The notes beneath the pieces are model-generated. The model was given only the letters and a program-made list of their open reading frames with translations, did not search any database and was not told where the DNA came from. Shown here piece after piece: positions 6,475 through 58,280 of a DNA stretch of 64,000 nt (the stretch's first letter is position 1; each line of letters begins with the position of its first letter). The stretch comes from Linyphia triangularis. Lineage: Eukaryota > Arthropoda > Arachnida > Araneae > Linyphiidae. The stretch spans positions 48,521,385 through 48,585,384 of the forward strand of contig OZ021727.1 in NCBI GenBank assembly GCA_963978545.1, given 5' to 3'. The position numbers and the translations under genes are program-made.

Positions 6475-8388
6475 AGAAATAATTTTGAAAAACCAACCAA
6501 TACCAATCTTAATTCACATGCAGAGGTTATTAACGACCTCGAGTCTGATCATCTCCCTGATCAGGTCAGGGTTGCCAAATATGTCAACACAGACTCAGCT
6601 TCCATTCCAAAACGGACTGGATATGTTTCACAACATCCTCTCCACTCAAACCGACCAACACACACCCCTGGTTCATGCCAATGACATTGATGCAGCTGTT
6701 ATAAGCTCAATGGTGATAACAACACTGCCCACTCCTCGTCCACTGCTTATAAAAAATATATCCCAAATTATATGAGGCTCTATTCGGATATCAGAGACCT
6801 CATCAGATTCAGAAACCGACTCCGTAAAACATATCAACGAACCATGGACCTTACTCTTAAATCATAGCTTAATGCTCTGAAGAGAGTTTTCGAGAGAATT
6901 ATCTGTAATTGTTTCGCGTCTCTCTATGCTCATATTCCAAACGAGGAGTTTGGATTTATGAAAGGAAGGTGCACCACCAGGCAACTGGTCAGGATTTTAG
7001 ACTATGTTGGTGCTGCCAAACATTGCAATGAGAGATCGGCTATCCTCATGTTGGATGTCACCAAGGCGTTTGGCAGGGCAGTCCACTCTTGGCTTATCTT
7101 TAAACTTATCCCGTGAAACATACCTAACGACATTCTACACCTCATATGGAGCTATCTAGACTAAAGATCCTTCAGGGTCAGGTTGGTTGGTTGTATTCAG
7201 ATTATCTGGCGCCGTCAGCAACACGAGGGCTATAATGCGCCGAAACATTCATCATTAGACAAGCTAACATACATTTACAAACACCCATGCCTAACATGGG
7301 ACTCGAACCCGCAACCTCGCGGTCTAGAAGCCAGCATGCTAACCACTATAGCGTTTGGTCGGCCCTTCAGGGTCAGAGTAGGTAAATACATCTCCTCACA
7401 TCGAGAAATAAAGGCCGTGGTCCCACAGGGGAGCATCCTTGGTCCCACACTTAATAATAATCACACGTCAGATTTTCCCACATTTCATGAAGACAGCAAC
7501 TGTCTAACCTCTTTTTACGTGGATGACACGGTCATTGTATCAAAATCTCTTAATACTCAAACTGCCCTCAACAAGCTTCAGTCTAAAATACATGCTATTG
7601 AATCCTGCTGCGCCAGGTGGAAGATTAGCATCAATGCTGGAAAATCTCAAATTCTATGCACCAAAACTAGAAACAAAAAAGAAAAACCCAATCACTAGTA
7701 ATGAAGTCATTCTCTTCAACGAGGTGAGCCCCATTGTCCGCAAGGCAGAATACCTAGGTGTCACCATCAATGACAACCTAAGCTGGTCAGACCACATCAC
7801 TGCGGTGACCAAAAACATGTTTGGAGTAATAAGAAAACTCTGGCCACTTCTTGGCAGGAACTCCACCCTTCCATTAAACTTTAAAAGGAGGATTTACCTC
7901 AGCTCTGTCAGGCCAATCTTTTTATATGCCTCCTCTGCTTGTGTCAAATGCAACCCCAAAGTTTTTCTAAGATTACAAATCATACAGAACAAAATTCTTC
8001 GAAACATGGTTAATGCTACAAGATACGTGAAAAATGATCTAATTCACAGGGATTTCCGTATCAACACACTAGCCCAAATCCTGGCAGAGCTGAACACTTA
8101 TTTTTATAAGAAAGCGCGAGTTTTGTAAATAGAGGTATTTAACGTTTTTTATTATTATTCTTAGTCCTAACCGTCCGTCCCCTTTTACTGTATTTTATTA
8201 TGCCAATCTGATTTATTTACCTTACATGATCGTCCTTCGGGTGCGATGCGATTAGTGGAGCAGTGTCTTCGGGCTGGTTCCACTGTAACTCTAGCATCAA
8301 AGTCAAAAGGCCTATCAGTTTTATTACTTCCTATATCTCTTTTCCATTCTCAATTGATAAAATGAGTTTACTTTTTAGTAAATTAGAA
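6475..8388 (+). pseudogene. Jockey-like LINE, decayed ORF2 with 3' UTR
   Basis: Scattered frames encode a non-LTR retrotransposon ORF2. In order they show an endonuclease-type SDHLP motif near 6547, the linker helix with RNRLRKTYQRT (near 6810-6845), an RT motif GFMKGRCTTRQL (near 6950-6990), LDVTKAFGRAVHSWLI, then after a SINE insertion VPQGSILGP (near 7410) and the catalytic box YVDD (7516-7527). The C-terminal region runs to a stop at 8128 with YLGVTINDNLSW. The RT core is internally deleted between the linker and GFMKG, and there are stops and a frameshift near 7690. Sequence to about 8388 is probably its 3' UTR. It is inactive. The order and motifs fit the Jockey clade. Confidence 0.8.
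7182..7363 (-). mobile_element. tRNA-derived SINE inside the LINE
   Basis: Read on the minus strand, it begins GCCGACCAAACG and contains an A-box-like TATAGTGGTTAGC and a B-box GGTTCGAGTCC. It ends in an (AACC) tail, seen as TTGGTTGGTTG on the + strand. It is flanked by the 13-bp direct repeat CCTTCAGGGTCAG (7169-7181 and 7364-7376), a target-site duplication inside the RT frame of the LINE. A second copy lies at 8583-8762. Confidence 0.88.
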
Positions 8389-14672: not shown

Positions 14673-35579
<20,907 letters not shown>

Positions 35580-35793: not shown

Positions 35794-36434
35794 TCTATTA
35801 TAATAAAACAAGTTGTCTGTCTGTCAGTCTGTGGATCTATAGAAAGCGAAAGCTATTTAAAATTGGAGTCGAACTTTTAAATTTTCAACATAAGTAGTTT
35901 TGGCCTATTAATTTTGCCTCTGAAAAAACGAATGTTAAAATTTTAATAAATAATTTTTTAATTAATATTTTTTTTTTTTTACAAAACTACTTCAAATAGA
36001 GATACAGTTCTTAAATTTTCAACATAAATAAATTTAAGCCTTCTAATTGGACTGTTGAAAATCAGAATGTTAAAATTTCAATTAGTTATTTTTAAATAAT
36101 TTACTTAATTAATTAAAAAATAATTATAAAACGGATACAGCTCAAATTTTCAACATAAGTAGATTTGTCCTTCCCATTTTGCTTATGACAAACAGAATTA
36201 AAATTTTAATTAGTTCTTTTTTAATTAATTAATAAATATTTTACAAAACGATTTCTAATAAGGCTATACATCTCTGAAATTTTCAACGTAAGTAGTTGTG
36301 GCCTTCTAATTGAACTTTTGAATAAAGAATTTTGAATTTCTATTTACTTCTTTTTTAATTAATTTTTTAATTAATAAATATTTATTTTACAAAACGATTT
36401 CAAATAGGGCTACAGCTCTGAAATTTTCAACCTA
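35794..36434 (+). mobile_element. Helitron family 1, 5' portion
   Basis: It begins A|TCTATTATAATAAAAC with TGTCTGTCTGTCAGTCTGTG, matching the 5' end of the Helitron at 16942-18409. It continues with several ~130-bp units (CTCTGAAATTTTCAACATAA, TTGGCCTTCTAATTGG). It is cut at 36434 by the palindromic element and resumes at 51519. Confidence 0.72.
36429..36434 (+). repeat. Left 6-bp target duplication (AACCTA)
   Basis: AACCTA directly precedes the terminal AGTAGTTAG of the palindromic element and recurs at 51519-51524 directly after its CTAACTACT end. Removing the element and one copy restores an intact Helitron unit (TTTTCAACCTAAGTAGTTTT). Confidence 0.78.
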
Positions 36435-36494
36435 AGTAGTTAGAAAATGCCGATCCTGGGCCAGGGGCGGTGCCGGTGCAGGGATGAGGGATGA

Positions 36495-37135
36495 TGACGT
36501 CACGGGAAGGGGGCGTGACCGGATATGACATCACAGGAAGTGATATCACCGGAAGTCACGTGACTGGAAGTGGAGTTGAGTTGTTCCACCTGCCGCTGTT
36601 TTAGTTTCGGTTTCGTTATAAGCTGTTTGTGTATGACGTCACAGTGGGTATGACGTCATAATGTGTTTTATATCAAAGTTTTGAGTGGTGGCAACACTTT
36701 TTAGTTTCGGTTTATCTTTCAGACGGAGTTGAGTTGTTCTAGGACTGCTTCTTAGCGAATAAGTTAGAGTGATAGGCTTTTATTGCGTGACGTCACAGCG
36801 GGTATGACGGCATAATTTATTTTATATCAAAGTTTTGAGCGGTGGCAACACTTTTTAGTTTCGATTTACCTTTAAGGCGGAGTTGAGTTGTTCTAGGGCT
36901 GCTTCTAAGTGAATAAGTTAGAGTGATAGGCTTTTATTGCGTGACGTCACAGTGGGTATGACGTCATTCATGATTTTACAAAACTTACTTTTAAGACGAT
37001 GGCAGCAATAGGAATATATGCTAAGTTTTAGGCGGTATGGAGTTGAGTTGTTCTAGGGCTACTTCTAAGTGAATAACTTAGAGTGATAGGCTGTTTTACC
37101 AGTGACGTCACAGTGTTAATGCAGTGGGGGGGGGG
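36495..37135 (+). promoter_or_regulatory. Terminal array with seven TGACGTCA octamers, left arm
   Basis: Perfect CRE/ATF octamers start at 36495, 36634, 36651, 36788, 36942, 36959 and 37103. Four of them head ~155-bp direct repeats (spacing 154, 154, 161) that also contain GGAGTTGAGTTGTTC, AAGTTAGAGTGATAGGC and TTTATATCAAAG. A G-run (37124-37135) follows. CRE octamers are known binding sites for CREB/ATF bZIP factors; here they could equally be binding sites for the element's own transposase. Confidence 0.8.
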
Positions 37136-37331
37136 GACATCACGATTTGCTTTATATCAAAGTTTAAGGAATAGCAACATCTTGTTTCCTGATATAGCTA
37201 AGTCTCCTTTGATTGGTTGAAATAAAAGCTCGCTTCTGATTGGTTAGAATATGTCACGTGATTTCAAATGCTCTTCTCATTGACTATACAGTTTAGTAAA
37301 ACAGTTTTCTACTAAGTTTAATGTAATTGCG

Positions 37332-37345
37332 GCGCCATCTAGTGG
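37332..37345 (-). promoter_or_regulatory. CTCF-like motif, left arm
   Basis: On the minus strand CCACTAGATGGCGC fits the CTCF core CCASYAGRKGGCRS at every position. The mirror copy is at 50608-50621 on the + strand, so the two sites face outward on opposite strands. Confidence 0.55.
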
Positions 37346-38449
37346 TAGGAAAGAATATAAATTACACAGTTTATAACTTTTCATGCTTCACCATTAAAAA
37401 CTTCAAATACATGCAAAGATAATATATTAACACAAATGCGTAAAGTTTCGGATTGAGTTGATTTTTTTTCTATAAGTGCTTAACACATTTAAACTAATGT
37501 TGAGAGATATAATCGCAAGATACTTTTAAGGAATCAGGTTTAATCAATGTTAGACACATAAAGTCTCATTATTTTCTCAATAACAGTATGAAATGTAAAT
37601 ATAAATTAAAATTTATGAGATAAAAATTTAAACTTTGCAATCTTAACGTGAAAATTTCTTTTACAGAGCTTAACATGTCATTAAAAAGTTTTTTTTTCTT
37701 TTATAGTCATAGTTTTTGAGGGATTGAATACACAACGAAAAGAACTTAAACTAGAATTAATTTTTAATATTCAGCAACTGAAACCCATTATGGAAGTTAA
37801 AACAATGATTTTACAATTATTTTTAGGTTGAGTTAGTCTGACCCTGTTGAAGGGAATTAGTAGTTGTAGTGTGTTCACACGTGACTTTGCAATACAATAT
37901 TAGTAATATACATTTCCAAAAAGAAATATTTATCACTTTGAATAGAAAAATTACGATTTTTTTTTTTATTTATATAAGTATTATTCTCAATTTTGTAAAT
38001 TTGAAATGTATTATCCATTTTTTATTGAGGAATCTATAATTTTTTTCTTCTTCTTCCAGAATGGTTTAGGAAAAAACCTTTCATTTTAGTCCGAACAATG
38101 TTTTCAAAGAGATGGAAATACATAACTTTTCGATATATCAACATTCAAATACTTTGAAATTGATTCTATTTGTTACAACCGATTATAATTTAAAGCTATA
38201 CTGTACAATGCGAGCGATATTATATATCTTAGCTACTTACTGTCTATGTTAAAATTTATATTAACAATAAACTTGTTAGAAATTAATATGTCTATGTTAG
38301 TTATATTAATCAAGATAGTTTTTATTGTACAATGATACTTACTTAAGTTGATGAATGGCAACACAGAACTAGCTGCTAATGCTGAATAGAGATGTGATAA
38401 CTGATTTTGGATACTCTAATGTCTAAATAAGAGAGAAATAGTAACATAC

Positions 38450-40050
38450 TTGAACATCTTACATTTAAGAATTCAAAAGTGAACATGAAAATTTACTTTA
38501 CGAATAAAAATCATGTCTTTAAAATGTCTACGAATATCACTAAATAAGAGAAAAAAAGTAACATACTTAAACTCTTTACGACAAATAACTTTAACATTAA
38601 CGAAAAAAAATTTACTTTACACATAAAAATCACTTTAAAATGTGTAAAAATATCGCTAAATAAGAGAAAAAAAAAGTAACTTACTTAAAATTTCTAAGAT
38701 AAATATTTAACCTTTGCGCGAAAATTCCCTTCATATATAAAAATCACGACTTTAAAATAAAACATGCAAGAGAAAAGTAACGTACTTAAACTTTCTACGA
38801 CAAATAACTTTAACATTAACGTAAAATTTTACTTTACACATAAAAATCCCGACTTTAAAATATGTAGAAATATCGTTAAATAAAAGAAAAAAATTAACAC
38901 TCTTAAACTTTATACAACAAATAACTTTGACATTAACGTAAAAAATTTTCTTCACATATTAAAATCATGACTTTAAAATGTGACGTGTAAGAAGAATTAG
39001 CATACTTAAAATTTCTACGACAAATAATTTTAACCTTTACGCGAAAATGTACTACATATATAAAAATCATGTCTTTAAAATATCTCTAAATAAAAGAAAA
39101 AAAGTAACATACTTAAACTTTCTACGACAAATAACTTTAACATTAATGTAAAATTTACCTTACACATAAAAATCACGACTTTAAATATGACATGTAGGAG
39201 AAAAGTATTACATACCTATAATTTCTACGACAAAGAATTCAAACATTACCATTCATGTCTTTAAAATGTATAATGACAACTCTAACTTTTAGAAAAAAGA
39301 AACACTAAAAATTTACAAGGCAAAGAATTTAAAATTGAACTTGAAAATTACTTTACATGTACAATCATACTCTTATATCAACGATAAAGATAAAAAAAAA
39401 AAAAAAAAAGAAGCTCTAAAAATGTATAAGACAAAGAATTTAAATAATACGCGAAAATTTACCTCACGTATAAAAATTATGTCTTTCAAATGTGTAAGAA
39501 TAACGCTAAATTAGAGAAAAAGAAATATTAAAAATTTATAAGGTAAGGAATTGAAACAATACGCGAAAATTTATTTCACACATAACATTTTTATCTTTAA
39601 AATGTGTGAGAATAATGCTAAATTGGAGAAGAAAAAAAAATAACATACTTAAACTTTCTTCGACAAAAATTTAAACAATACGCGAAATTTTCATACACAA
39701 TCATTTTCTTAGATTAATGTTAAATAATGGGAAATTTAACGGAATAAAAATTTCAAAGATAAAGAATTTTAACCTTTACACGAAAATTTACTTCACATAT
39801 AAATATCATGTCTTTAAACTTTAACGTGACAATTTACTTCTCATATACAATTAAACTCTTAGGTTAATGTTAAATAAAAGAAAAAGTAACATACTTAAAA
39901 ATTTCTAAGATAAGCATAACGTAAAAATTTCGCATCATGTGTTTAAAATGTAACATATAAGAAAAAAAAACCTAACATACTTGAACTTTCTATAGCAAAG
40001 AATTTAAGCATTAGCGTAAAATTTTACTTTACATATAAAATTCACGTCTT
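38450..40050 (+). repeat. Satellite-like array of diverged ~120-bp units, left arm
   Basis: Loose tandem units repeat a fixed order: TTTACTTTACACATAAAAATC, GACTTTAAAATGTG, AATATCGCTAAATAAGAGAA, AAAAGTAACATACTTAAAC, TTTCTACGACAAATAAC. At least a dozen units are visible, with deletions. The mirrored array is at 47890-49520. Confidence 0.75.
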
Positions 40051-40102
40051 TAAACGGGATGATAAGCATGTGACGGTAATTAGCCAATCAGGTTAGCGGT
40101 AG

Positions 40103-40312
40103 GTGATACGCCACTTGCCGGCATTTTTAGACCGGAGGATGAGTCACGCTAAAACTTGTTCAAACAGGTCGGGAGACTTGTACAGCAAGAACAACAGCAT
40201 CGACGCGCAAGCAGCGGGTGATGCTGCGGTGTGTCAGCAGGTCTTCGAGATTATCGTTTTCCTACTTTTCCTTTTTCATAATGAAATGTTTGTGAAAACT
40301 TGGAATGAATGA
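40103..40312 (+). CDS. Hypothetical 69-codon ORF, left arm
   Basis: The ORF starts MIRHLPAFLDRRMSHAK and ends NEMFVKTWNE. It occupies a GC-rich island (about 40070-40260) in an otherwise very AT-rich arm. The mirror arm carries the same translation at 47630-47839, so it is intact in both copies. No family is recognised. It may be a captured exon fragment or a non-coding island rather than a translated gene. Confidence 0.3.
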   Translation: MIRHLPAFLDRRMSHAKTCSNRSGDLYSKNNSIDAQAAGDAAVCQQVFEIIVFLLFLFHNEMFVKTWNE

Positions 40313-43300
40313 AGTGGATTTCAAAGACACATTAGTAAGTGAAGGTAGAATTCGCATGGACTTTCTTCCAAAAAGTATGATTCACTTGGAGAATTTAAGA
40401 TCATTTCTACTTGAAAACTTTTCTATTGTCTAAAACATTGAATATTGTTCAAACTCAGTGAGATTATATGCTACAATACGGGTAAAACTTAACAAAATTG
40501 TTACATAGAAGAAAAATAGTAAGAGATTTAAAATAAATACTAGTTATAGATACTCCAAGGGAAAAAAAATTCACCTCTACTTTTCAATCTGAAAATCAAT
40601 GCAAGTTGGAAATTTATGTTACTTCAAGAAAGACTTAGACAATTTACTTTGTAATAATATACGTTAAGGTGTCGTATTAACTCGTGCAATACATGCTGAC
40701 TGAGGTTTATTTTACTTATCTAAGAAAGGTGAATTGGGGGAAAATATTAAATAAATTGTAGATATTAAATACATTGTAGATATGCATTTAAGTTTTGAAA
40801 ATCACCTGCAAGACTTTTAAAACATCTTAAGATAAATTGAAAGAAACTTGCGAATTATATGTAAACTATATAACTTTTTATACTCTGAAAGGAAATCACA
40901 AGTAATTTAGTTAACTTTTTTCATGGTAACACTCATATTCAACGACATGTTTTTAAAATTTAACCTTCTTTACATGATAATAGTTATAAATTTTTTCAAT
41001 CTCAGATGCGATATACTATTATTTCTAACATATATGTTACGAATTGTGTAAAGTTTTTAAAACTATATATGCAAATCACCAATCAGAAACATAAAAATCT
41101 AACATCAATCAAACAAGCTAAAATAATAAGATATTTTCCTTAGTGGAAATAGTTAACTACTCATGTGATGAAATATACTTAGAAAATTTAAATACTGAAA
41201 AAAGTTTGCTAGGCAAACTTAAAGAATATTTTTTTTTCTTGTGAAAAACTAGCATAAATTTGGAAAATGTAGAGTTTGTTACTACGTAAAATTGAACATC
41301 ATCTGGACAAACTAAATTATACATGAATTTTTTTTTTATTTGAGAGGTGCTGACAATATATCATTAATATAGAGATTTTTAACTTCCACCCATAATTTCT
41401 AAATAACTTATACATAAATTTCAGAAAAACTGAAACGGAATGTGTTTTACAAGAGGCTTATTTTGTAAGATGAATATTCAATATTAATATAACTGAGCAA
41501 AGTTCATTCCGGAAAAACTTGTAAAAGATACTTATATTTTAAAATAGTTTGAAATATCCTTTTCAATTTATGAATGCTCGCTTTCGAAAGACACAAATAA
41601 AACTGATATTACTCATGATAATTAACACATACATAACATTAGTCAAACAAAGTGAAATTTTTATTGCTTGTGACCGATAACTTGTCAGTGAAGCAGAACT
41701 TACATAGGAAATTTGTGCAAACTTTTTCAACTTTTAAACCAAGTATCATGTAAAATTATAAATTACGATAGGAAATAGCATACTTCAGAATCGGAACAAG
41801 TCTTGTAGTTAAGCTAAATGTATTTCTCAAGGAATTGAAAGCATACCAGAGAAGTCCTTATCATTTCGCATCTTTTCTCATGTTGCAAGAAGACATACTT
41901 TGTAAAAGATCGTCTTAGCACTTAACAAAAATCAGTAAAAATAAATATATTTTCTATGGCAAAGATAAAACTTCACAACTTAATTACTTAAATATAGCTA
42001 AGTTGCATATGGTTTATTCGCATAACTCGCATGTGCTTTGAATGTTGAAATATATTTGTCAGTTGAAATCAAACTCATCGAAAATAAATGCTATCTACAT
42101 TTTCAAGTCGGAAATTACTATTAAATAAACTTTACATGTAAGACATTATCATGTTAAAAAGAAAAATCTACAAAAATGTAAATGATAATTTTACTGTTGG
42201 TACATAAATGATGAATAATTTATGATTTTATTCTAGGCAAACGTTTTATTGTCTAACAGAGAACTTAAACTTTAGCAGAAAAACGAAAAAATACAATTTT
42301 TATATCCTATCATGCTTGCCGAAAATTGAATTTATTAGCTGTTGTAATAGATTTTTATTGTCCAAATTTCTATAGTTCTTCCCAGTGCAATAATATTAAG
42401 TTCATGTGTAATGAGTAGGTTTTTTTTTTTTTTTTTGTTGAATCTTATAAATTTAATGAAATTATTATGACCTAAGAGATTGAGTGAACTGAATAAATCA
42501 ATGACGTAAATTTAAACAGTGACTTGAACTGATATACATACTATAACTGTAAAGAAGTATGACAAAGTGATAGATGAAGTGAAAATAGAAGTTGAGTGAA
42601 ATGTGTTGAAAAAAGTTGAAGACGACAAGAAATTCATAAATGAGAATTATCATTGACTTATATTAACTTCGTTTTTCTTGCTTATGACAAGAAAATACAC
42701 TCTTGTTTATTAAGAACCAACTTGATATCTTATCATAGAATGACAATGATGAAATATCTATACATTAAAAAAAAAATACCAAACTTAGACATAGCAAATT
42801 TCTTGAAATTCATGTATAATGTGAGAAGTTTTACTGGAAATATAGAAGATACAACATTGAAAGATGTGAATGTTTCGAAGTACTTTATCAGAAATAAAAA
42901 AAAATAAAAAATGCGCTGAGGTCCGCTATAAAATTTTTTAGGAGAAAGTTTAAACAAAATTTAAAATCAAACATGCTTTTAAGTGGGAACACATATATTA
43001 AAACTATAGCACATTTAACAATTTATATTATGTCATCTCAGTTGGTATCAAACTGAATTATATGAAAAACAACCACAAACTGAATAAACATGAAAATTAT
43101 CAATATATGTGGAAAAGTTTCCTTTTTTCACATATAAAAAAAAAATAACACATTGACATACGTTAAGATCACGAAACATGCGTAATCATATACCGATAAG
43201 AGCAACCAATGTTGCGGGGAGATATTCACGTGATGGACAATATCCCATGAATAAATTGAGTGATTTAATTTCTAATGCTAATTCCAATAGTATTCCACGT

Positions 43301-43970
43301 AACTTCAACTTTATATGTTACACTATAGATATATTTATTTTTCAAATATATTGACTTTCGAAAAATCATCCTTCAATATAAGAATGATCATAGTAAGAAT
43401 AAAAGAAAAGATACTAAGCATTGCTTTAAAGTGTATTTATTTCAACTTAGCAACAAATCATATGCGTGAAACGAAAATTGCTTCGAACCAAAGTATAACT
43501 ATCCAATTTCATTGATTCCTACAAGGAAATTTTTCTCATCTAGTAATTGAATTTTTTTTTTCTCGTACACATTATAAGTGTTGTCCAATCAGGTGTAGAA
43601 TAGCTGAAGATATCCGACCTCTTTCTAAATATTAATAAGTCACTGTTGAAAAACTTATAAAAATTTCAATTTACACTTAAAGTTTTTTTATATATATATA
43701 TATATTTCAAAGAATTTTTTCAAATCAATATGTATATTTAAATACTGAAACTTATTCACTTCAATAAATGTATGTTTAAGTTATAAAACTTGTCGTATGT
43801 ATTGAAAAATTGTAACTTTTCGTCTTCGTATAAATCGATAACTTATACACTAGTTCTTCATCAATTAATCTTCTAAGTAAATCTTTCAAAGGTAAAAACA
43901 TACATATAGCTTTGCATTTGTAACAAGTTAAATTGTACATGTTTCATGTGAAAGTTACAAAATTTTATAT
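40313..43970. other. Inner left arm, no gene
   Basis: AT-rich sequence without recognisable coding content. The ORFs here (for example 42653-42907, 43315-43515) are chance frames; some recur in the right arm only because of the palindrome. Confidence 0.6.
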
Positions 43971-43983
43971 TTTCATGAAAAAC
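43971..43983. other. Central loop of the palindrome
   Basis: AAAATTTTATAT (43959-43970) and ATATAAAATTTT (43984-43995) are exact complements separated by 13 bp. The palindrome therefore closes with almost no spacer. Confidence 0.85.
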
Positions 43984-46900
43984 ATATAAAATTTTAATTT
44001 CACGAGAAACATGTACAATTTAACTTGTTACAAATGTAAAGCTATAGGTATGTTTTTACCTTTGAAAGATTTACTTAGAAGATTAATTGATGAAGAACTA
44101 GTGTATAAGTTATCGGTTTATACGAAGACGAAAAGTTACAATTTTTCAATACATACGACAAGTTTTATAACTTAAACATACATTTATTGAAGTGAATAAG
44201 TTTCAGTATTTAAATATACATATTGATTTGAAAAAATTCTTTGAAATATATATATATATATAAAAACTTTAAGTGTAAATTGAAATTTTTATAAGTTTTT
44301 CAACAGTGACTTATTAATATTTAGAAAGAGGTCGGATATCTTCAGCTATTCTACACCTGATTGGACAACACTTATAATGCGTACGAGAAAAAAAAAATTC
44401 AATTACTAGATGAGAAAAATTTCCTTGTAGGAATCAATGAAATTGGATAGTTATACTTTGGTTCGAAGCAATTTTCGTTTCACGCATATGATTTGTTGCT
44501 AAGTTGAAATAAATACACTTTAAATCAATGCTTAGTATCTTTTCTTTTATTCTTACTATTATCATTCTTATATTGAAGGATGATTTTTCGAAAGTCAATA
44601 TATTTGAAAAATAAATATATCTATAGTGTAACATATAAAGTTGAAGTTACGTGGAATACTATTGGAATTAGCATTAGAAATTAAATCACTCACTTTATTC
44701 ATGGGATATTGTCCATCACGTGAATATATCCCCGCAACATTGGTTGCTCTTATCGGTATATGATTACGCATGTTTCGTGATCTTAACGTATGTCAATGTG
44801 TTATTTTTTTTTTTATATGTGAAAAAAGGAAACTTTTCCACATATATTGATAATTTTCATGTTTATTCAGTTTGTGGTTGTTTTTCATATTATTCAGTTT
44901 GATACCAACTGAGATGACATAATATAAATTGTTAAATGTGCTATAGTTTTAATATATGTGTTCCCACTTAAAAGCATGTTTGATTTTAAATTTTGTTTAA
45001 ACTTTCTCCTAAAAAATTTTATAGCGGACCTCAGCGCATTTTTTATTTTTTTTTATTTCTGATAAAGTACTTCGAAACATTCACATCTTTCAATGTTGTA
45101 TCTTCTATATTTCCAGTAAAACTTCTCACATTATACATGAATTTCAAGAAATTTGCTATGTCTAAGTTTGGTATTTTTTTTAATGTATAGATATTTCATC
45201 ATTGTCATTCTATGATAAGATATCAAGTTGGTTCTTAATAAACAAGAGTGTATTTTCTTGTCATAAGCAAGAAAAACGAAGTTAATATAAGTCAATGATA
45301 ATTCTCATTTATGAATTTCTTGTCGTCTTCAACTTTTTTCAACACATTTCACTCAACTTCTATTTTCACTTCATCTATCACTTTGTCATACTTCTTTACA
45401 GTTATAGTATGTATATCAGTTCAAGTCACTGTTTAAATTTACGTCATTGATTTATTCAGCTCACTCAATCTCTTAGGTCATAATAATTTCATTAAATTTA
45501 TAAGATTCAACAAAAAAAAAAACCTACTCATTACACATGAACTTAATATTATTGCACTGGGAAGAACTATAGAAATTTGGACAATAAAAATCTATTACAA
45601 CAGCTAATAAATTCAATTTTCGGCAAGCATGATAGGATATAAAAATTGTATTTTTTCGTTTTTCTGCTAAAGTTTAAGTTCTCTGTTAGACAATAAAACG
45701 TTTGCCTAGAATAAAATCATAAATTATTCATCATTTATGTACCAACAGTAAAATTATCATTTACATTTTTGTAGATTTTTCTTTTTAACATGATAATGTC
45801 TTACATGTAAAGTATATTTAATAGTAATTTCCGACTTGAAAATGTAGATAGCATTTATTTTCGATGAGTTTGATTTCAACTGACAAATATATTTCAACAT
45901 TCAAAGCACATGCGAGTTATGCGAATAAACCATATGCAACTTAGCTAAATTTAAGTAATTAAGTTGTGAAGTTTTATCTTTGCCATAGAAAATATATTTA
46001 TTTTTACTGATTTTTGTTAAGTGCTAAGACGATCTTTTACAAAGTATGTCTTCTTGCAACATGAGAAAAGATGCGAAATGATAAGGACTTCTCTGGTATG
46101 CTTTCAATTCCTTGAGAAATACATTTAGCTTAACTACAAGACTTGTTCCGATTCTGAAGTATGCTATTTCCTATCGTAATTTATAATTTTACATGATACT
46201 TGGTTTAAAAGTTGAAAAAGTTTGCACAAATTTCCTATGTAAGTTCTGCTTCACTGACAAGTTATCGGTCACAAGCAATAAAAATTTCACTTTGTTTGAC
46301 TAATGTTATGTATGTGTTAATTATCATGAGTAATATCAGTTTTATTTGTGTCTTTCGAAAGCGAGCATTCATAAATTGAAAAGGATATTTCAAACTATTT
46401 TAAAATATAAGTATCTTTTACAAGTTTTTTCCGGAATGAACTTTGCTCAGTTATATTAATATTGAATATTCATCTTACAAAATAAGCCTCTTGTAAAACA
46501 CATTCCGTTTCAGTTTTTCTGAAATTTATGTATAAGTTATTTAGAAATTATGGGTGGAAGTTAAAAATCTCTATATTAATGATATATTGTCAGCACCTAT
46601 CAAATAAAAAAAAATTCATGTATAATTTAGTTTGTCCAGATGATGTTCAATTTTACGTAGTAACAAACTCTACATTTTCCAAATTTATGCTAGTTTTTCA
46701 CAAGAAAAAAAAATATTCTTTAAGTTTGCCTAGCAAACTTTTTTCAGTATTTAAATTTTCTAAGTATATTTCATCACATGAGTAGTTAACTATTTCCACT
46801 AAGGAAAATATCTTATTATTTTAGCTTGTTTGATTGATGTTAGATTTTTATGTTTCTGATTGGTGATTTGCATATATAGTTTTAAAAACTTTACACAATT

Positions 46901-47629
46901 CGTAACATATATGTTAGAAATAATAGTATATCGCATCTGAGATTGAAAAAATTTATAACTATTATCATGTAAAGAAGGTTAAATTTTAAAAACATGTCGT
47001 TGAATATGAGTGTTACCATGAAAAAAGTTAACTAAATTACTTGTGATTTCCTTTCAGAGTATAAAAAGTTATATAGTTTACATATAATTCGCAAGTTTCT
47101 TTCAATTTATCTTAAGATGTTTTAAAAGTCTTGCAGGTGATTTTCAAAACTTAAATGCATATCTACAATGTATTTAATACCTACAATTTATTTAATATTT
47201 TCCCCCAATTCACCTTTCTTAGATAAGTAAAATAAACCTCAGTCAGCATGTATTGCACGAGTTAATACGACACCTTAACGTATATTATTACAAAGTAAAT
47301 TGTCTAAGTCTTTCTTGAAGTAACATAAATTTCCAACTTGCATTGATTTTCAGATTGAAAAGTAGAGGTGAATTTTTTTTCCCTTGGAGTATCTATAACT
47401 AGTATTTATTTTAAATCTCTTACTATTTTTCTTCTATGTAACAATTTTGTTAAGTTTTACCCGTATTGTAGCATATAATCTCACTGAGTTTGAACAATAT
47501 TCAATGTTTTAGACAATAGAAAAGTTTTCAAGTAGAAATGATCTTAAATTCTCCAAGTGAATCATACTTTTTGGAAGAAAGTCCATGCGAATTCTACCTT
47601 CACTTACTAATGTGTCTTTGAAATCCACT

Positions 47630-47839
47630 TCATTCATTCCAAGTTTTCACAAACATTTCATTATGAAAAAGGAAAAGTAGAAAAACGATAATCTCGAAGA
47701 CCTGCTGACACACCGCAGCATCACCCGCTGCTTGCGCGTCGATGCTGTTGTTCTTGCTGTACAAGTCTCCCGACCTGTTTGAACAAGTTTTAGCGTGACT
47801 CATCCTCCGGTCTAAAAATGCCGGCAAGTGGCGTATCAC
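47630..47839 (-). CDS. Hypothetical 69-codon ORF, right arm
   Basis: Mirror copy of 40103-40312 with identical translation over 69 residues. Conservation may only reflect recent palindrome formation or gene conversion between arms. Confidence 0.3.
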   Translation of the reverse strand: MIRHLPAFLDRRMSHAKTCSNRSGDLYSKNNSIDAQAAGDAAVCQQVFEIIVFLLFLFHNEMFVKTWNE

Positions 47840-47889
47840 CTACCGCTAACCTAATTGGCTAATTACCGTCACATGCTTATCATCCCGTT

Positions 47890-49520
47890 TAAAGACGTGA
47901 ATTTTATATGTAAAGTAAAATTTTACGCTAATGCTTAAATTCTTTGCTATAGAAAGTTCAAGTATGTTAGGTTTTTTTTTCTTATATGTTACATTTTAAA
48001 CACATGATGCGAAATTTTTACGTTATGCTTATCTTAGAAATTTTTAAGTATGTTACTTTTTCTTTTATTTAACATTAACCTAAGAGTTTAATTGTATATG
48101 AGAAGTAAATTGTCACGTTAAAGTTTAAAGACATGATATTTATATGTGAAGTAAATTTTCGTGTAAAGGTTAAAATTCTTTATCTTTGAAATTTTTATTC
48201 CGTTAAATTTCCCATTATTTAACATTAATCTAAGAAAATGATTGTGTATGAAAATTTCGCGTATTGTTTAAATTTTTGTCGAAGAAAGTTTAAGTATGTT
48301 ATTTTTTTTTTCTTCTCCAATTTAGCATTATTCTCACACATTTTAAAGATAAAAATGTTATGTGTGAAATAAATTTTCGCGTATTGTTTCAATTCCTTAC
48401 CTTATAAATTTTTAATATTTCTTTTTCTCTAATTTAGCGTTATTCTTACACATTTGAAAGACATAATTTTTATACGTGAGGTAAATTTTCGCGTATTATT
48501 TAAATTCTTTGTCTTATACATTTTTAGAGCTTCTTTTTTTTTTTTTTTTTTTTTTTTTATCTTTATCGTTGATATAAGAGTATGATTGTACATGTAAAGT
48601 TAATTTTCAAGTTCAATTTTAAATTCTTTGCCTTGTAAATTTTTAGTGTTTCTTTTTTCTAAAAGTTAGAGTTGTCATTATACATTTTAAAGACATGAAT
48701 GGTAATGTTTGAATTCTTTGTCGTAGAAATTATAGGTATGTAATACTTTTCTCCTACATGTCATATTTAAAGTCGTGATTTTTATGTGTAAGGTAAATTT
48801 TACGTTAATGTTAAAGTTATTTGTCATAGAAAGTTTAAGTATGTTACTTTTTTTCTTTTATTTAGAGATATTTTAAAGACATGATTTTTATATATGTAGT
48901 ACATTTTCGCGTAAAGGTTAAAATTATTTGTCGTAGAAATTTTAAGTATGCTAATTCTTCTTACACGTCACATTTTAAAGTCATGATTTTTATATGTGAA
49001 GAAAAATTTTTACGTTAATGTCAAAGTTATTTGTTGTATAAAGTTTAAGAGTGTTAATTTTTTTCTTTTATTTAACGATATTTCTACATATTTTAAAGTC
49101 GGGATTTTTATGTGTAAAGTAAAATTTTACGTTAATGTTAAAGTTATTTGTCGTAGAAAGTTTAAGTACGTTACTTTTCTCTTGCATGTTTTATTTTAAA
49201 GTCGTGATTTTTATATATGAAGGGAATTTTCGCGCAAAGGTTAAATATTTATCTTAGAAATTTTAAGTAAGTTACTTTTTTTTTTCTCTTATTTAGCAAT
49301 ATTTTTACACATTTTAAAGTGATTTTTATGTGTAAAGTAAATTTTTTTTCGTTAATGTTAAAGTTATTTGTCGTAAAAAGTTTAAGTATGTTACTTTTTT
49401 TCTCTTATTTAGTGATATTCGTAGACATTTTAAAGACATGATTTTTATTCGTAAAGTAAATTTTCATGTTCACTTTTGAATTCTTAAATGTAAGATGTTC
49501 AAGTATGTTACTTTTTCTCT
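47890..49520 (-). repeat. Satellite-like array, right arm
   Basis: Mirror copy of the array at 38450-40050, with the same ordered blocks on the opposite strand and a longer T-run near 48534-48559. Confidence 0.75.
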
Positions 49521-50607
49521 CTTATTTAGACATTAGAGTATCCAAAATCAGTTATCACATCTCTATTCAGCATTAGCAGCTAGTTCTGTGTTGCCATTCA
49601 TCAACTTAAGTAAGTATCATTGTACAATAAAAACTATATTGATTAATATAACTAACATAGACATATTAATTTCTAACAAGTTTATTGTTAATATAAATTT
49701 TAACATAGACAGTAAGTAGCTAAGATATATAATATCGCTCGCATAGTACAGTATAGCTTTAAATTATAATCGGTTGTAACAAATAGAATCAATTTCAAAG
49801 TATTTGAATGTTGATATATCGAAAAGTTATGTATTTCCATCTCTTTGAAAACATTGCTCGAACTAAAATGAAAGGTTTTTTCCTAAACCATTCTGGAAGA
49901 AGAAGAAAAAAATTATAGATTCCTCAATAAAATATGGATAATACATTTCAAATTTACAAAATTGAGAATAATACTTATATAAATAAAAAAAAAATCGTAA
50001 TTTTTCTATTCAAAGTGATAAATATTTCTTTTTGGAAATGTATATTACTAATATTGTATTGCAAAGTCACGTGTGAACACACTACAACTACTAATTCCCT
50101 TCAACAGGGTCAGACTAACTCAACCTAAAAATAATTGTAAAATCATTGTTTTAACTTCAATAATTGTTTCAGTTGCTGAATATTAAAAATTAATTCTAGT
50201 TTAAGTTCTTTTCGTTGTGTATTCAATCCCTCAAAAACTATGACAATAAAAGAAAAAAAAAACTTTTTAATGACATGTTAAGCTCTGTAAAAGAAATTTT
50301 CACGTTAAGATTGCAAAGTTTAAATTTTTATCTCATAAATTTTAATTTATATTTACATTTCATACTGTTATTGAGAAAATAATGAGACTTTATGTGTCTA
50401 ACATTGATTAAACCTGATTCCTTAAATGTATCTTGCGATTATATCTCTCAACATTAGTTTAAATGTGTTAAGCACTTATAGAAAAAAAAAATCAACTCAA
50501 TCCGAAACTTTACGCATTTGTGTTAATATATTATCTTTGCATGTATTTGAAGTTTTTAATGGTGAAGCATGAAAATTTATAAACTGTGTAATTTATATTC
50601 TTTCCTA

Positions 50608-50621
50608 CCACTAGATGGCGC
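50608..50621 (+). promoter_or_regulatory. CTCF-like motif, right arm
   Basis: CCACTAGATGGCGC on the + strand, exact mirror of 37332-37345. Confidence 0.55.
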
Positions 50622-50816
50622 CGCAATTACATTAAACTTAGTAGAAAACTGTTTTACTAAACTGTATAGTCAATGAGAAGAGCATTTGAAATCACGTACC
50701 ATATTCTAACCAATCAGAAGCGAGCTTTTATTTCAACCAATCAAAGGTGACTTAGCTATATCAGGAAACAAGATGTTGCTATTCTTTAAACTTTGATATA
50801 AAGCAAATCGTGACGT

Positions 50817-51458
50817 CCCCCCCCCCCACTACATTAACACTGTGACGTCACTGGTAAAACAGCCTATCACTCTAAGTTATTCACTTAGAAGTAGCCCTAG
50901 AACAACTCAACTCCATACCGCCTAAAACTTAGCATATATTCCTATTGCTGCCATCGTCTTAATGGCAAGTTTTGTAAAATCATGAATGACGTCATACCCA
51001 CTGTGACGTCACGCAATAAAAGCCTATCACTCTAACTTATTCACTTAGAAGCAGCCCTAGAACAACTCAACTCCGCCTTAAAGGTAAATCGAAACTAAAA
51101 AGTGTTGCCACCGCTCAAAACTTTGATATAAAATAAATTATGCCGTCATACCCGCTGTGACGTCACGCAATAAAAGCCTATCACTCTAACTTATTCGCTA
51201 AGAAGCAGTCCTAGAACAACTCAACTCCGTCTGAAAGATAAACCGAAACTAAAAAGTGTTGCCACCACTCAAAACTTTGATATAAAACACATTATGACGT
51301 CATACCCACTGTGACGTCATACACAAACAGCTTATAACGAAACCGAAACTAAAACAGCAGCAAGTGGAACAACTCAACTCCACTTCCGGTCACGTGACTT
51401 CCGGTGATGTCACTTCCTGTGACGTCATATCCGGTCACGCCCCCTTCCGGTGACGTCA
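50817..51458 (-). promoter_or_regulatory. Terminal array with eight TGACGTCA octamers, right arm
   Basis: Mirror of the left terminal array. The innermost octamer is 50843-50850 and the outermost 51451-51458. One octamer intact here (near 51419) is TGACATCA in the left arm, consistent with CpG decay. Confidence 0.8.
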
Positions 51459-51518
51459 TCATCCCTCATCCCTGCACCGGCACCGCCCCTGGCCCAGGAT
51501 CGGCATTTTCTAACTACT

Positions 51519-51524
51519 AACCTA
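51519..51524 (+). repeat. Right 6-bp target duplication (AACCTA)
   Basis: It directly follows the CTAACTACT terminus and repeats 36429-36434. Because AGTAGT follows it, a longer 12-bp duplication with a non-symmetric end is formally possible. Confidence 0.78.
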
Positions 51525-52019
51525 AGTAGTTTTGGCCTCCTAATTGGACTTTTGACGAAAAGAATGTTAAAATTTTAATTTGTTTTTAATTCATTTTTTT
51601 AATTAATATTTTCACAAAAAGCGACTTCTAATGGGCATAGAACTCTGAAAAAGTTTCAACATAAGTAGTTTTGGCCTCTAATTTTGCTTTCCACAAACAC
51701 CTGTTAAAATAATCTTAAAGGGGTGTTGTATTATTGTATTAACGGGGAATTTTTTTTTTCTCGACAAGGGAGAGGCTCCCAATATTAAGGCTTTAAGTAG
51801 CAATTAGATTTTAGTGAATGAAGTGAGCCTATGCTTGCATAGCAATGAACCTTTCAACAAGTGAAGTAAGCTTGTGTTTTTGTGTCAATGAACTTTTCAG
51901 CGAACGAAGCGAGCTCGATTTTGAGCAGCGATGAACCTTAATTCCTGCGAGCGAAGTTCCAAAAACTGGGATCTATACACCAATTACGAATTTCCGCAGC
52001 GCGAGTCCTCACACCTAGG
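51525..52019 (+). mobile_element. Helitron family 1, 3' portion
   Basis: It continues the Helitron interrupted at 36434: AAGTAGTTTTGGCCTCCTAA, a further unit, then a region with GGGTGTTGTATTATTGTATT, GAAGTGAGCC and AGCGAACGAAGCGAGCTCG. It ends near CGAGTCCTCACACCTAG. Compared with the copy at 16942-18409 the terminal hairpin after the CTCACA block is missing, so the 3' end is truncated or replaced by the next repeat. Confidence 0.6.
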
Positions 52020-53439: not shown

Positions 53440-54420
53440 TACAAAGGGACTTTATATAGAGATACAGCTCTGAAATTTTCAACATAAGTTGTTTCAGCCT
53501 TATAATTGTAGCTTTCAAAAACAGAATTTTAAAATCTTGATTAATTTTTTTAATTAATTAACACATATTTTAGAAAATGATTTCTAAGAGGTCTACAGCT
53601 CTAAATTTTCATCATAAGATTTTGGCCTTCTAATTAAACATTTGAAAAACAGAATTATAACTTTTTTTTTTTTTTTTTTTTAATTCATTTTTAAACTAAT
53701 TAATAAATATTTTACAAAAGGATTTTACTAAGGCTATAGTTCTAAAATTTTCAACATAAGTAGTTTTGACCTTAAAATTGTGCTTTTGGAAAACATAATT
53801 TAAAATTTTTATTCAGTTATCTTTTAATTAATTTTTTTAATTAATTAATAAATATTTTACCAAACGATTTCTAATAGGGCTACAGCTCTGAAATTTTCAA
53901 CATAATTAGTTTTGCCCTTCTAATTGGACTTTTAAAACACAGAGTTTTATAATTTAATTTACTTTTTAAATTAATTTTTTTAATTAATTAACAAATATTT
54001 TACAAAACGATTTCTAACAGGGCTACAGTTCTGAAATTTTCAACGTAAATAGTTTTGGCCTTCTAATTGGATTTTTGACAAAAAGAATGTTAAAATTTTA
54101 ATTTGTTACTTTTTATTGTTTTATAATATTTGCACAAAAAACGACTTCTAATAGACCTAGAGCTTTGAATGTTTCAACGTAAAATTGTTTTGGCCTTCTA
54201 AGTTTGCTTTTCTCAAACACGTGTTATAATGTTCTTAAAGGGATGTTTTATTATTGTATTAACGGGGAATTTTATATTGTTTCTCGACAGGGAAGGGGCT
54301 CCTAATATTAAGGTTTTACGTAGCAATTAGTTTTTTGTGAGTGAAGCGAGCTTATGCTTACGCAGCAATGAACCTTTCAGCAAGCAAAGCGAGCCCACGC
54401 TGGCATACCAATGAATCTGT
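53440..54420 (+). mobile_element. Helitron family 1, partial copy
   Basis: At least five ~130-bp units (TACAGCTCTGAAATTTTCAA, TTTTGGCCTTCTAATTGG, TTAATTAATAAATATTTTAC) run into the same 3' module as 51525-52019 (TATTGTATTAACGGGGAATT, AGTGAAGCGAGC). The 5' TC end and the terminal hairpin were not found; the right side is cut by a (TA)n tract. Confidence 0.65.
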
Positions 54421-57136: not shown

Positions 57137-57300
<164 letters not shown>

Positions 57301-58280
57301 TATTTTTGCTGTTTTTGCAATTTTGCTTTTAGTTTATTGACAAATTTCTCCAAATGAAAGCATGCCTCATGGGTCAATCATATGCAAATCATCATCAAAT
57401 TTACTCACATCAATCATTTCAATGTTGTCTTAAAAATAATTACTGAATGTTATAGTTTTTTGGATGCTAATTACACAAAAAAATAAAAAAAATAAATAAC
57501 GTACAATTTGATCACAAATGACAAGTCTAATATAAACTTCCCCGCTTTATATAAAATTATGTCGAATAAAACTATTTGCAAAACATATTAAAAAAATAAA
57601 AAAAAAAATAAAAAAAAATACTAAAGATGTAGGAAAAGCTATTCTTAGGAACTGATATAAAAGTAAATTATTAAAGAATGAAAACGTTGAGCTCACAATG
57701 GAGGGAATCGAAAGAAAATAGTCTTTCTAACAAATGGCAATCAGCTTTCTTGGAAACCAAATGGACTCGAAGTATTATTATTTATTTTATTATCTAAGAT
57801 ATGTTACAAAATTTTATTATATGAGTTAAAAGTTTATTTTCTCCATTTGCATCCGTATACTTTATCCCTGAAATTTTAGGTGCTTTCAGTGAAGAGTAAG
57901 TTGAAAGATTTCACCAAGATACAAAAAAAATGGAAAAGGAATATCAAGAAAAGTGGAGTATTAGCATGATAGCCATGATTACTACTGGATATTGCGAACA
58001 AAATACCTAGCAACTTCACAAGAAGGAAAGCGGAAATGAAGTTTAGAGAAAAAGAGAAAACACTACAATAAGCATTTGTAAACTTTCCCTAAACTAATTG
58101 ATCAATAAAAATATGCCACAGCTAGTGTATAAATGTTAAGTATGTATTTAAAAAGGTGGTAAAATAGCAACACAAATGTAGAAATATCTTGATTTTAGTT
58201 ATTTCCTAGTTTCCTACCTAATATTTCCTACAAAATATTAAATCATTTTGTAAAATTCTTATGTGATAGAAAAAAAAGGC
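57301..58280. other. Intergenic, no feature
   Basis: AT-rich sequence with A-rich low-complexity patches near 57590-57620. No gene was recognised. Confidence 0.5.

Follow-up and report, generated by a model that had tools for sequence, protein, structure and literature searches.

The window analysed here is a stretch of 64,000 nucleotides from the spider Linyphia triangularis (assembly GCA_963978545.1, contig OZ021727.1, positions 48,521,385 to 48,585,384 of the forward strand). Its segment 36435-51518 is a single palindrome with two arms of about 7.5 kb. We find that this palindrome is real and that it is a member of a multicopy family, of which an end or a centre is carried by at least 65 distinct places in the host genome. 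Our preferred explanation, to which we give a probability of roughly 0.6, is that the family consists of non-autonomous palindromes of about 15 kb which rely on resident Maverick/Polinton elements, whose integrase moves them and whose protein-primed polymerase probably copies them, and that the arms are made equal by foldback.

A multicopy family of palindromes

Aligned to its own reverse complement, the palindrome matches over its full length with 98.889% identity in 15118 columns, and the arm-against-arm alignment of the window copy counts 54 substitutions and 16 indel events. An earlier note on this DNA, which had described a near-perfect palindrome with inverted arms of this size, is thereby confirmed. 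The length of the palindrome alone rules out a chance origin. The left terminus reads AGTAGTTAGAAAATGCC, with its complement at the right terminus, and AACCTA stands on both sides, all exactly as the note had described. Its loop of about 13 bp agrees with the centroid fold, in which 13 nt at the centre are unpaired, but not with the minimum-energy fold, which has a 5-nt loop.

The host assembly (1.35 Gb in 369 contigs) was searched with two parts of the palindrome. The outer 1 kb gave at least 58 matches at 26 places, with 40 of 2734 candidates scored, and among the 26 places listed 13 carry ends on both the + and the - strand, spanning 14.3 to 22.8 kb. The central 651-bp query, for which 40 of 841 first-look candidates were scored, found at least 40 centres with both strands matching, so that one animal assembly carries at least this number of near-spacerless palindromic centres, a structure usually thought to be unstable. 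The window copy alone is common to the lists of ends and centres.

Ten further copies were fetched, eight of which could be read end to end like the window copy. These nine complete copies are 14,475 to 15,084 bp long and lie on chromosome-scale contigs, with flanks and a duplication particular to each copy. The absence of other copies, which the earlier note had named as a refutation of its reading, is therefore not what we found, and its proposal of a mobile element fits the many copies, the 6-bp duplications and the Polinton/Maverick-type (AGT)2 ends. The copies C9c and C14a are incomplete as fetched and bear other insertions. Three copies are decaying: C14a (L027/L028) has 2.7 kb of other sequence at its centre, C9c (L015/L016) has one-sided inserts and C8b (L019/L020) has lost one side of the centre.

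All nine complete copies start with AGTAGTTA and end with TAACTACT, the motifs at which their boundaries were placed. Duplications of 6 bp flank all nine fully read copies, a count to which C9c and C14a, with one end read each, do not belong. Eight of the duplications are perfect (AACCTA, ATGGTA, GCTAGT, GACATA, TACGTG, TTCATG, CCCAAG and GATGTA), and that of C9a agrees in five of six bases (CGTGCC/CGTGCA). Within the first 12 terminal bases C4a is one base off; from about base 13 of each arm inward the tips vary strongly among copies. The first 50 tip bases are nevertheless the same in both arms of eight of the nine copies, the arms of C15a first differing at base 22. In all nine copies the outermost 700 bp of every arm contain the motif TGACGTCA, known as CRE, 7 to 11 times, and 15 of the 16 occurrences of the motif in the window lie in these outer parts. 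These motifs could be promoter-like or part of a replication origin. A target preference for AGTAGTT, which follows AACCTA on the right flank here, was considered; none of the other eight fully read copies shows it.

When the element and one AACCTA are removed, the alignment of the joined flanks to further copies of the repeat within the window runs on through the junction. Eight of 23 matches span the junction, the best of them with 81% identity over 717 columns. The removal of the element thus restores a repeat, a putative Helitron according to the earlier note. An empty site, the lack of which the note had also named as a refutation, exists as a related repeat in the same window rather than as the orthologous site in a relative. 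The window has a GC content of 29.5%, and no Rfam family was detected in it at the gathering threshold. The palindrome and its insertion site are composed as follows, in window positions.

36035..36434, + strand: interrupted target repeat, left part (joined-flank test)
36429..36434, + strand: left target-site duplication AACCTA (sequence read)
36435..43958, + strand: left arm (P arm), starting AGTAGTTAGAAAA (self-alignment, arm comparison)
36435..37134, + strand: outer 700 bp of the left arm, GC-rich, with a 154-bp tandem repeat at 36634-36967 and seven TGACGTCA
38561..39248, + strand: internal tandem array of the left arm, periods about 103 and 210
43946..44007, no strand: central imperfect hairpin, with six fixed side differences
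43995..51518, - strand: right arm (Q arm), inverted copy of the left arm, ending ...TTTTCTAACTACT (self-alignment, arm comparison)
48703..49419, - strand: internal tandem array of the right arm, mirroring that of the left arm
50819..51518, - strand: outer 700 bp of the right arm, with a 154-bp tandem repeat at 50986-51319 and eight TGACGTCA
51519..51524, + strand: right target-site duplication AACCTA (sequence read)
51525..51924, + strand: interrupted target repeat, right part (joined-flank test); a related uninterrupted copy lies at 53680-54384

Elsewhere in the window, 19733-20291 is a second and much smaller near-perfect palindrome of about 560 bp, with 90.6% identity between the sequence and its reverse complement. 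One short tandem repeat forms arrays at two positions 27 kb apart (30364-30633 and 57137-57305). A reverse transcriptase fragment with an RVT_1 match is found at 7165-7695, and 31862-32152 may be an exon of a ligand-gated ion channel, with a Lig_chan match under the Pfam cut-off.

Equality of the arms and the central hairpin

In a tree of the 18 arms of the nine complete copies, the two arms of a copy are sisters in all nine cases (support 0.979-1.0). The centre positions used for this tree are imprecise, and the comparison was redone in eight copies with the centre fixed by sequence, leaving out C8b with its lost centre side and the incomplete C9c and C14a. The arms are 7.1-7.5 kb long and the divergence between the arms of a copy ranges from 0.068% to 0.666%, a spread of about tenfold. 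Gap-free polymorphic columns number 619; in 472 of them the two arms agree in every copy, and in the other 147 they do not. At 333 doubleton sites both arms of a single copy have a base that no other arm shows; no doubleton joins arms of two copies, and singletons number 120.

The inner 1.5 kb, compared in 16 copies, contains 42 doubletons within copies, none between copies and 42 singletons, and 72 of its 77 biallelic sites are fully arm-paired, against 1.3 expected. This comparison excludes C14a, the centre of which is disrupted by the 2.7-kb stretch; when it is included, 21 doubletons fall in the same copy and 10 in different copies, with 525 singletons. Of the 155 arm differences, 139 show a base that is absent from every other copy and therefore arose after the arms were last equal.

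The centre of the palindrome is a small imperfect hairpin with a folding energy of -31 kcal/mol, compared to -9.4 +/- 2.4 kcal/mol for shuffled sequences. Six alignment columns split all P arms from all Q arms of the eight copies, and all six lie at most 13 bp from the inner arm ends. They are exact in 17 of the 18 centres examined, the last being that of C8b, although the centres were located by a motif which itself contains the six columns (one mismatch allowed) and this weakens the count as support for our reading. Because private changes are shared by both arms and only these loop-adjacent columns keep the old left/right difference, the arms have been equalised in each lineage. The centre, on both its sides, thus traces back to a single old hairpin that was asymmetric, the flanking 7.5-kb arms having been re-equalised lineage by lineage. 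The imperfect hairpin common to the copies and the equality of the arms within each copy were beyond what the earlier note could see.

Maverick-type ends, candidate helpers and competing explanations

The commonest end motif of vertebrate Mavericks is 5'-(AGT)2//(ACT)2-3', with 6-bp duplications, and intact elements are 12.7-24.6 kb long with terminal inverted repeats (TIRs) of 46-1447 bp, according to the part of the source available (PMC8097293). The palindromes have the same end motif, the same size of duplication and, at 14.5-15.1 kb, a length in this range. An autonomous Maverick is recognised by a protein-primed PolB and a retroviral-type integrase. The palindrome contains two open reading frames (ORFs) of at least 80 amino acids (84 and 85 amino acids), each confined to a single arm and neither with a mirror ORF of such size, and the longest stop-to-stop frame listed has 99 amino acids. 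Hidden genes are ruled out as far as contiguous frames go, which agrees with the earlier note in that no gene for replication or integration is present. Since no ORF exceeds 85 amino acids, the palindrome is not an autonomous member of the Mavericks and needs a helper.

Candidates for such a helper in trans, which the earlier note had called for, are present in the genome. The DNA_pol_B_2 profile (Pfam: PF03175) has at least 60 matches here and none in 14 control genomes, with 91 of 810 candidates scored. Contig C10, about 7% of the genome, holds 19 of the 60 listed matches, some of which are pieces of one locus. The ORF at locus L044 has 1155 amino acids, matches DNA_pol_B_2 and has as its top relative a protein of the spider Argiope bruennichi (65% identity). 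Among five loci, L044 to L048, identity is 99.5-99.8%, and the matched stretch is stop-free in four of them, with one stop in L046. Their shared sequence starts with AGTAGTA and is preceded by a different flank in each, so (AGT)2 is the terminal motif of resident Maverick-type elements at the one end that could be read. From their sequence, these elements with a Maverick-type polymerase may possibly serve as helpers.

The mechanism that we propose would begin with the helper priming at AGTAGT and displacing one strand. Protein-primed replicators are known to start by jumping back, and the (AGT)2 repeat is consistent with such a start. Because it is self-complementary over its whole length, the displaced strand would fold up as a 7.5-kb hairpin whose single paired end, (AGT)2, would be a complete origin in itself. 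Entering at this paired end, the polymerase would copy along one arm as far as the loop, pass around it and return along the second arm, which would remake the 15-kb duplex. In the folded form, mismatch repair or template use would even out the arms everywhere but next to the loop, at which repair would fail. The integrase would then insert the duplex with a 6-bp duplication, and from insertion onward the arms would diverge like the long terminal repeats (LTRs) of a retroelement. We know of no direct observation of Maverick replication, which has been deduced from the polymerase. It is likely that the palindrome is inserted, and probably copied, as a Maverick is, and we infer that its palindromic form may be an adaptation to protein-primed strand displacement. 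The tenfold spread of divergence and the mostly private differences lean towards a clock that started at insertion. The divergence between arms would allow insertions to be dated in the way that LTR pairs do.

More tentatively, and with the odds somewhat against it, the palindrome can be seen as a satellite-like parasite of Mavericks, the whole genome of which is one snap-back strand. It would need no annealing partner and would out-replicate its helper, because each displaced strand would be a complete replicon with a double-stranded origin, and the central hairpin would be the inherited tip that cannot be corrected. If this is true, arm-arm divergence is a built-in insertion clock.

The main rival to foldback during helper-driven replication, which we consider less likely, is that the palindrome is mobilised by Mavericks and that, once inserted, its arms stay alike through gene conversion from one to the other in the chromosome, as happens in palindromes of sex chromosomes. 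The available parts of two sources (PMC3403216, PMC7023750) describe this process for sex chromosomes. It explains the equality of the arms too, and an uncorrected centre would likewise be expected under it. The differences between arms are also unevenly spread in four of the eight copies (the window copy W, p = 0.017; C8a, p below 0.001; C9a, p = 0.043; C4a, p = 0.045). This clustering leans towards the rival and is a hint that some conversion or exchange took place once the copies were inserted. Conversion of this kind fits poorly with the divergence of the arms, about ten times higher in some copies than in others, with the 139 private differences, which resemble a clock started at insertion, and with the one-sided inserts that persist in C9c, within the part read.

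Further observations, besides this clustering, weigh against our reading. Of the arm differences, 16 of 155 show states that are present in other copies too. The tree of the inner 1.5 kb, a stretch with few variable sites which includes the fixed centre columns, gives sister arms in only 8 of 16 copies, and the mate is strictly the nearest arm for 26 of 34 arms, C14a included. In the genome search, 12 of the 26 outer-end places have a single listed end, and one (G000:C4:77901881-77916072) has two + ends 14.2 kb apart, unlike the 13 places with opposed ends. The link to the resident elements is also incomplete. Inward of AGTAGT, the resident terminus (one family read) differs from the palindrome, and the comparison of the palindrome arms with 20 polymerase loci gave one chance-like match of 25 bp only. 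A derivation of the arms from any of these 20 loci is thus ruled out, and the origin suggested in the earlier note, by inversion and duplication of one Maverick end, finds no counterpart among them. No Maverick with the TIR AGTAGTTAGAAA was found among the 20 polymerase loci compared; the integrase was not sought.

That no Maverick was found which shares more than the first six end bases would also suit a giant foldback element, moved with 6-bp duplications by an unrelated cut-and-paste transposase and with no role for Mavericks. Galileo-type elements with long, internally repetitive TIRs do exist (PMC3573991, available part). We regard this explanation as improbable, since the (AGT)2//(ACT)2 motif and the 6-bp duplication both match reported Mavericks (PMC8097293), whereas Galileo has bounding sequences of 7 bp and TIRs of 18 bp to about 1.26 kb (PMC3573991). 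Resident loci that combine a Maverick-type polymerase with AGTAGT ends speak against it as well. Amplification and hairpin reads are known to produce artificial palindromes, but the possibility that the assembler or foldback-chimeric reads reversed one arm and joined it on can be rejected on the nine independent complete copies, each with separate flanks and duplication, on the empty site and on the 120 singletons that tell individual arms apart.

Comparison with known systems

Like the Mavericks/Polintons in the available part of PMC8097293, the palindromes have (AGT)2//(ACT)2 inverted ends, 6-bp duplications and a length of about 15 kb. They differ in that the ORF scan finds no polymerase, integrase or capsid gene, and in that they are inverted repeat throughout, with 7.1-7.5 kb per arm compared to the far shorter TIRs of intact vertebrate Mavericks (PMC8097293). 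With Galileo of the P superfamily they share long and internally repetitive inverted repeats, non-autonomous copies made of TIRs only and much TIR variation, as far as the accessible text of PMC3573991 goes. Galileo has another transposase, however, and its TIRs do not form near-perfect 15-kb palindromes (PMC3573991). The duplications of the palindrome copies, at 6 bp, are also not the 7-bp bounding type. By form, the palindromes are miniature inverted-repeat transposable elements (MITEs) or foldback elements, being non-coding, TIR-only and multicopy. A length of 15 kb is far above MITE size.

In the listed titles and abstract beginnings of the openly searchable literature, subscription papers and repeat databases being outside this scope, we found no palindromic Maverick derivative, and a non-autonomous Polinton or Maverick, in four spellings, did not occur in the openly searchable literature either. 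Within that literature, the palindromes would be the first Maverick-driven non-autonomous family known to us.

Two viral systems offer further parallels. The symmetric recombinants of adenovirus type 12 are reportedly palindromic and gene-poor, keep the protein-primed terminal origin and need a helper. They are an episomal virus product in cell culture, whereas the palindromes are a germ-line family with integrase-type duplications. The flip-flop ends of poxviruses and parvoviruses keep an imperfect terminal hairpin through replication, the adjoining arms staying equal. Those hairpins are terminal, whereas that of the palindrome lies at the centre of an integrated 15-kb duplex with no known resolvase or nickase. 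A family in which the arms are equalised in each lineage, save a few bases next to the loop, would naturally record a single-stranded intermediate that was folded.

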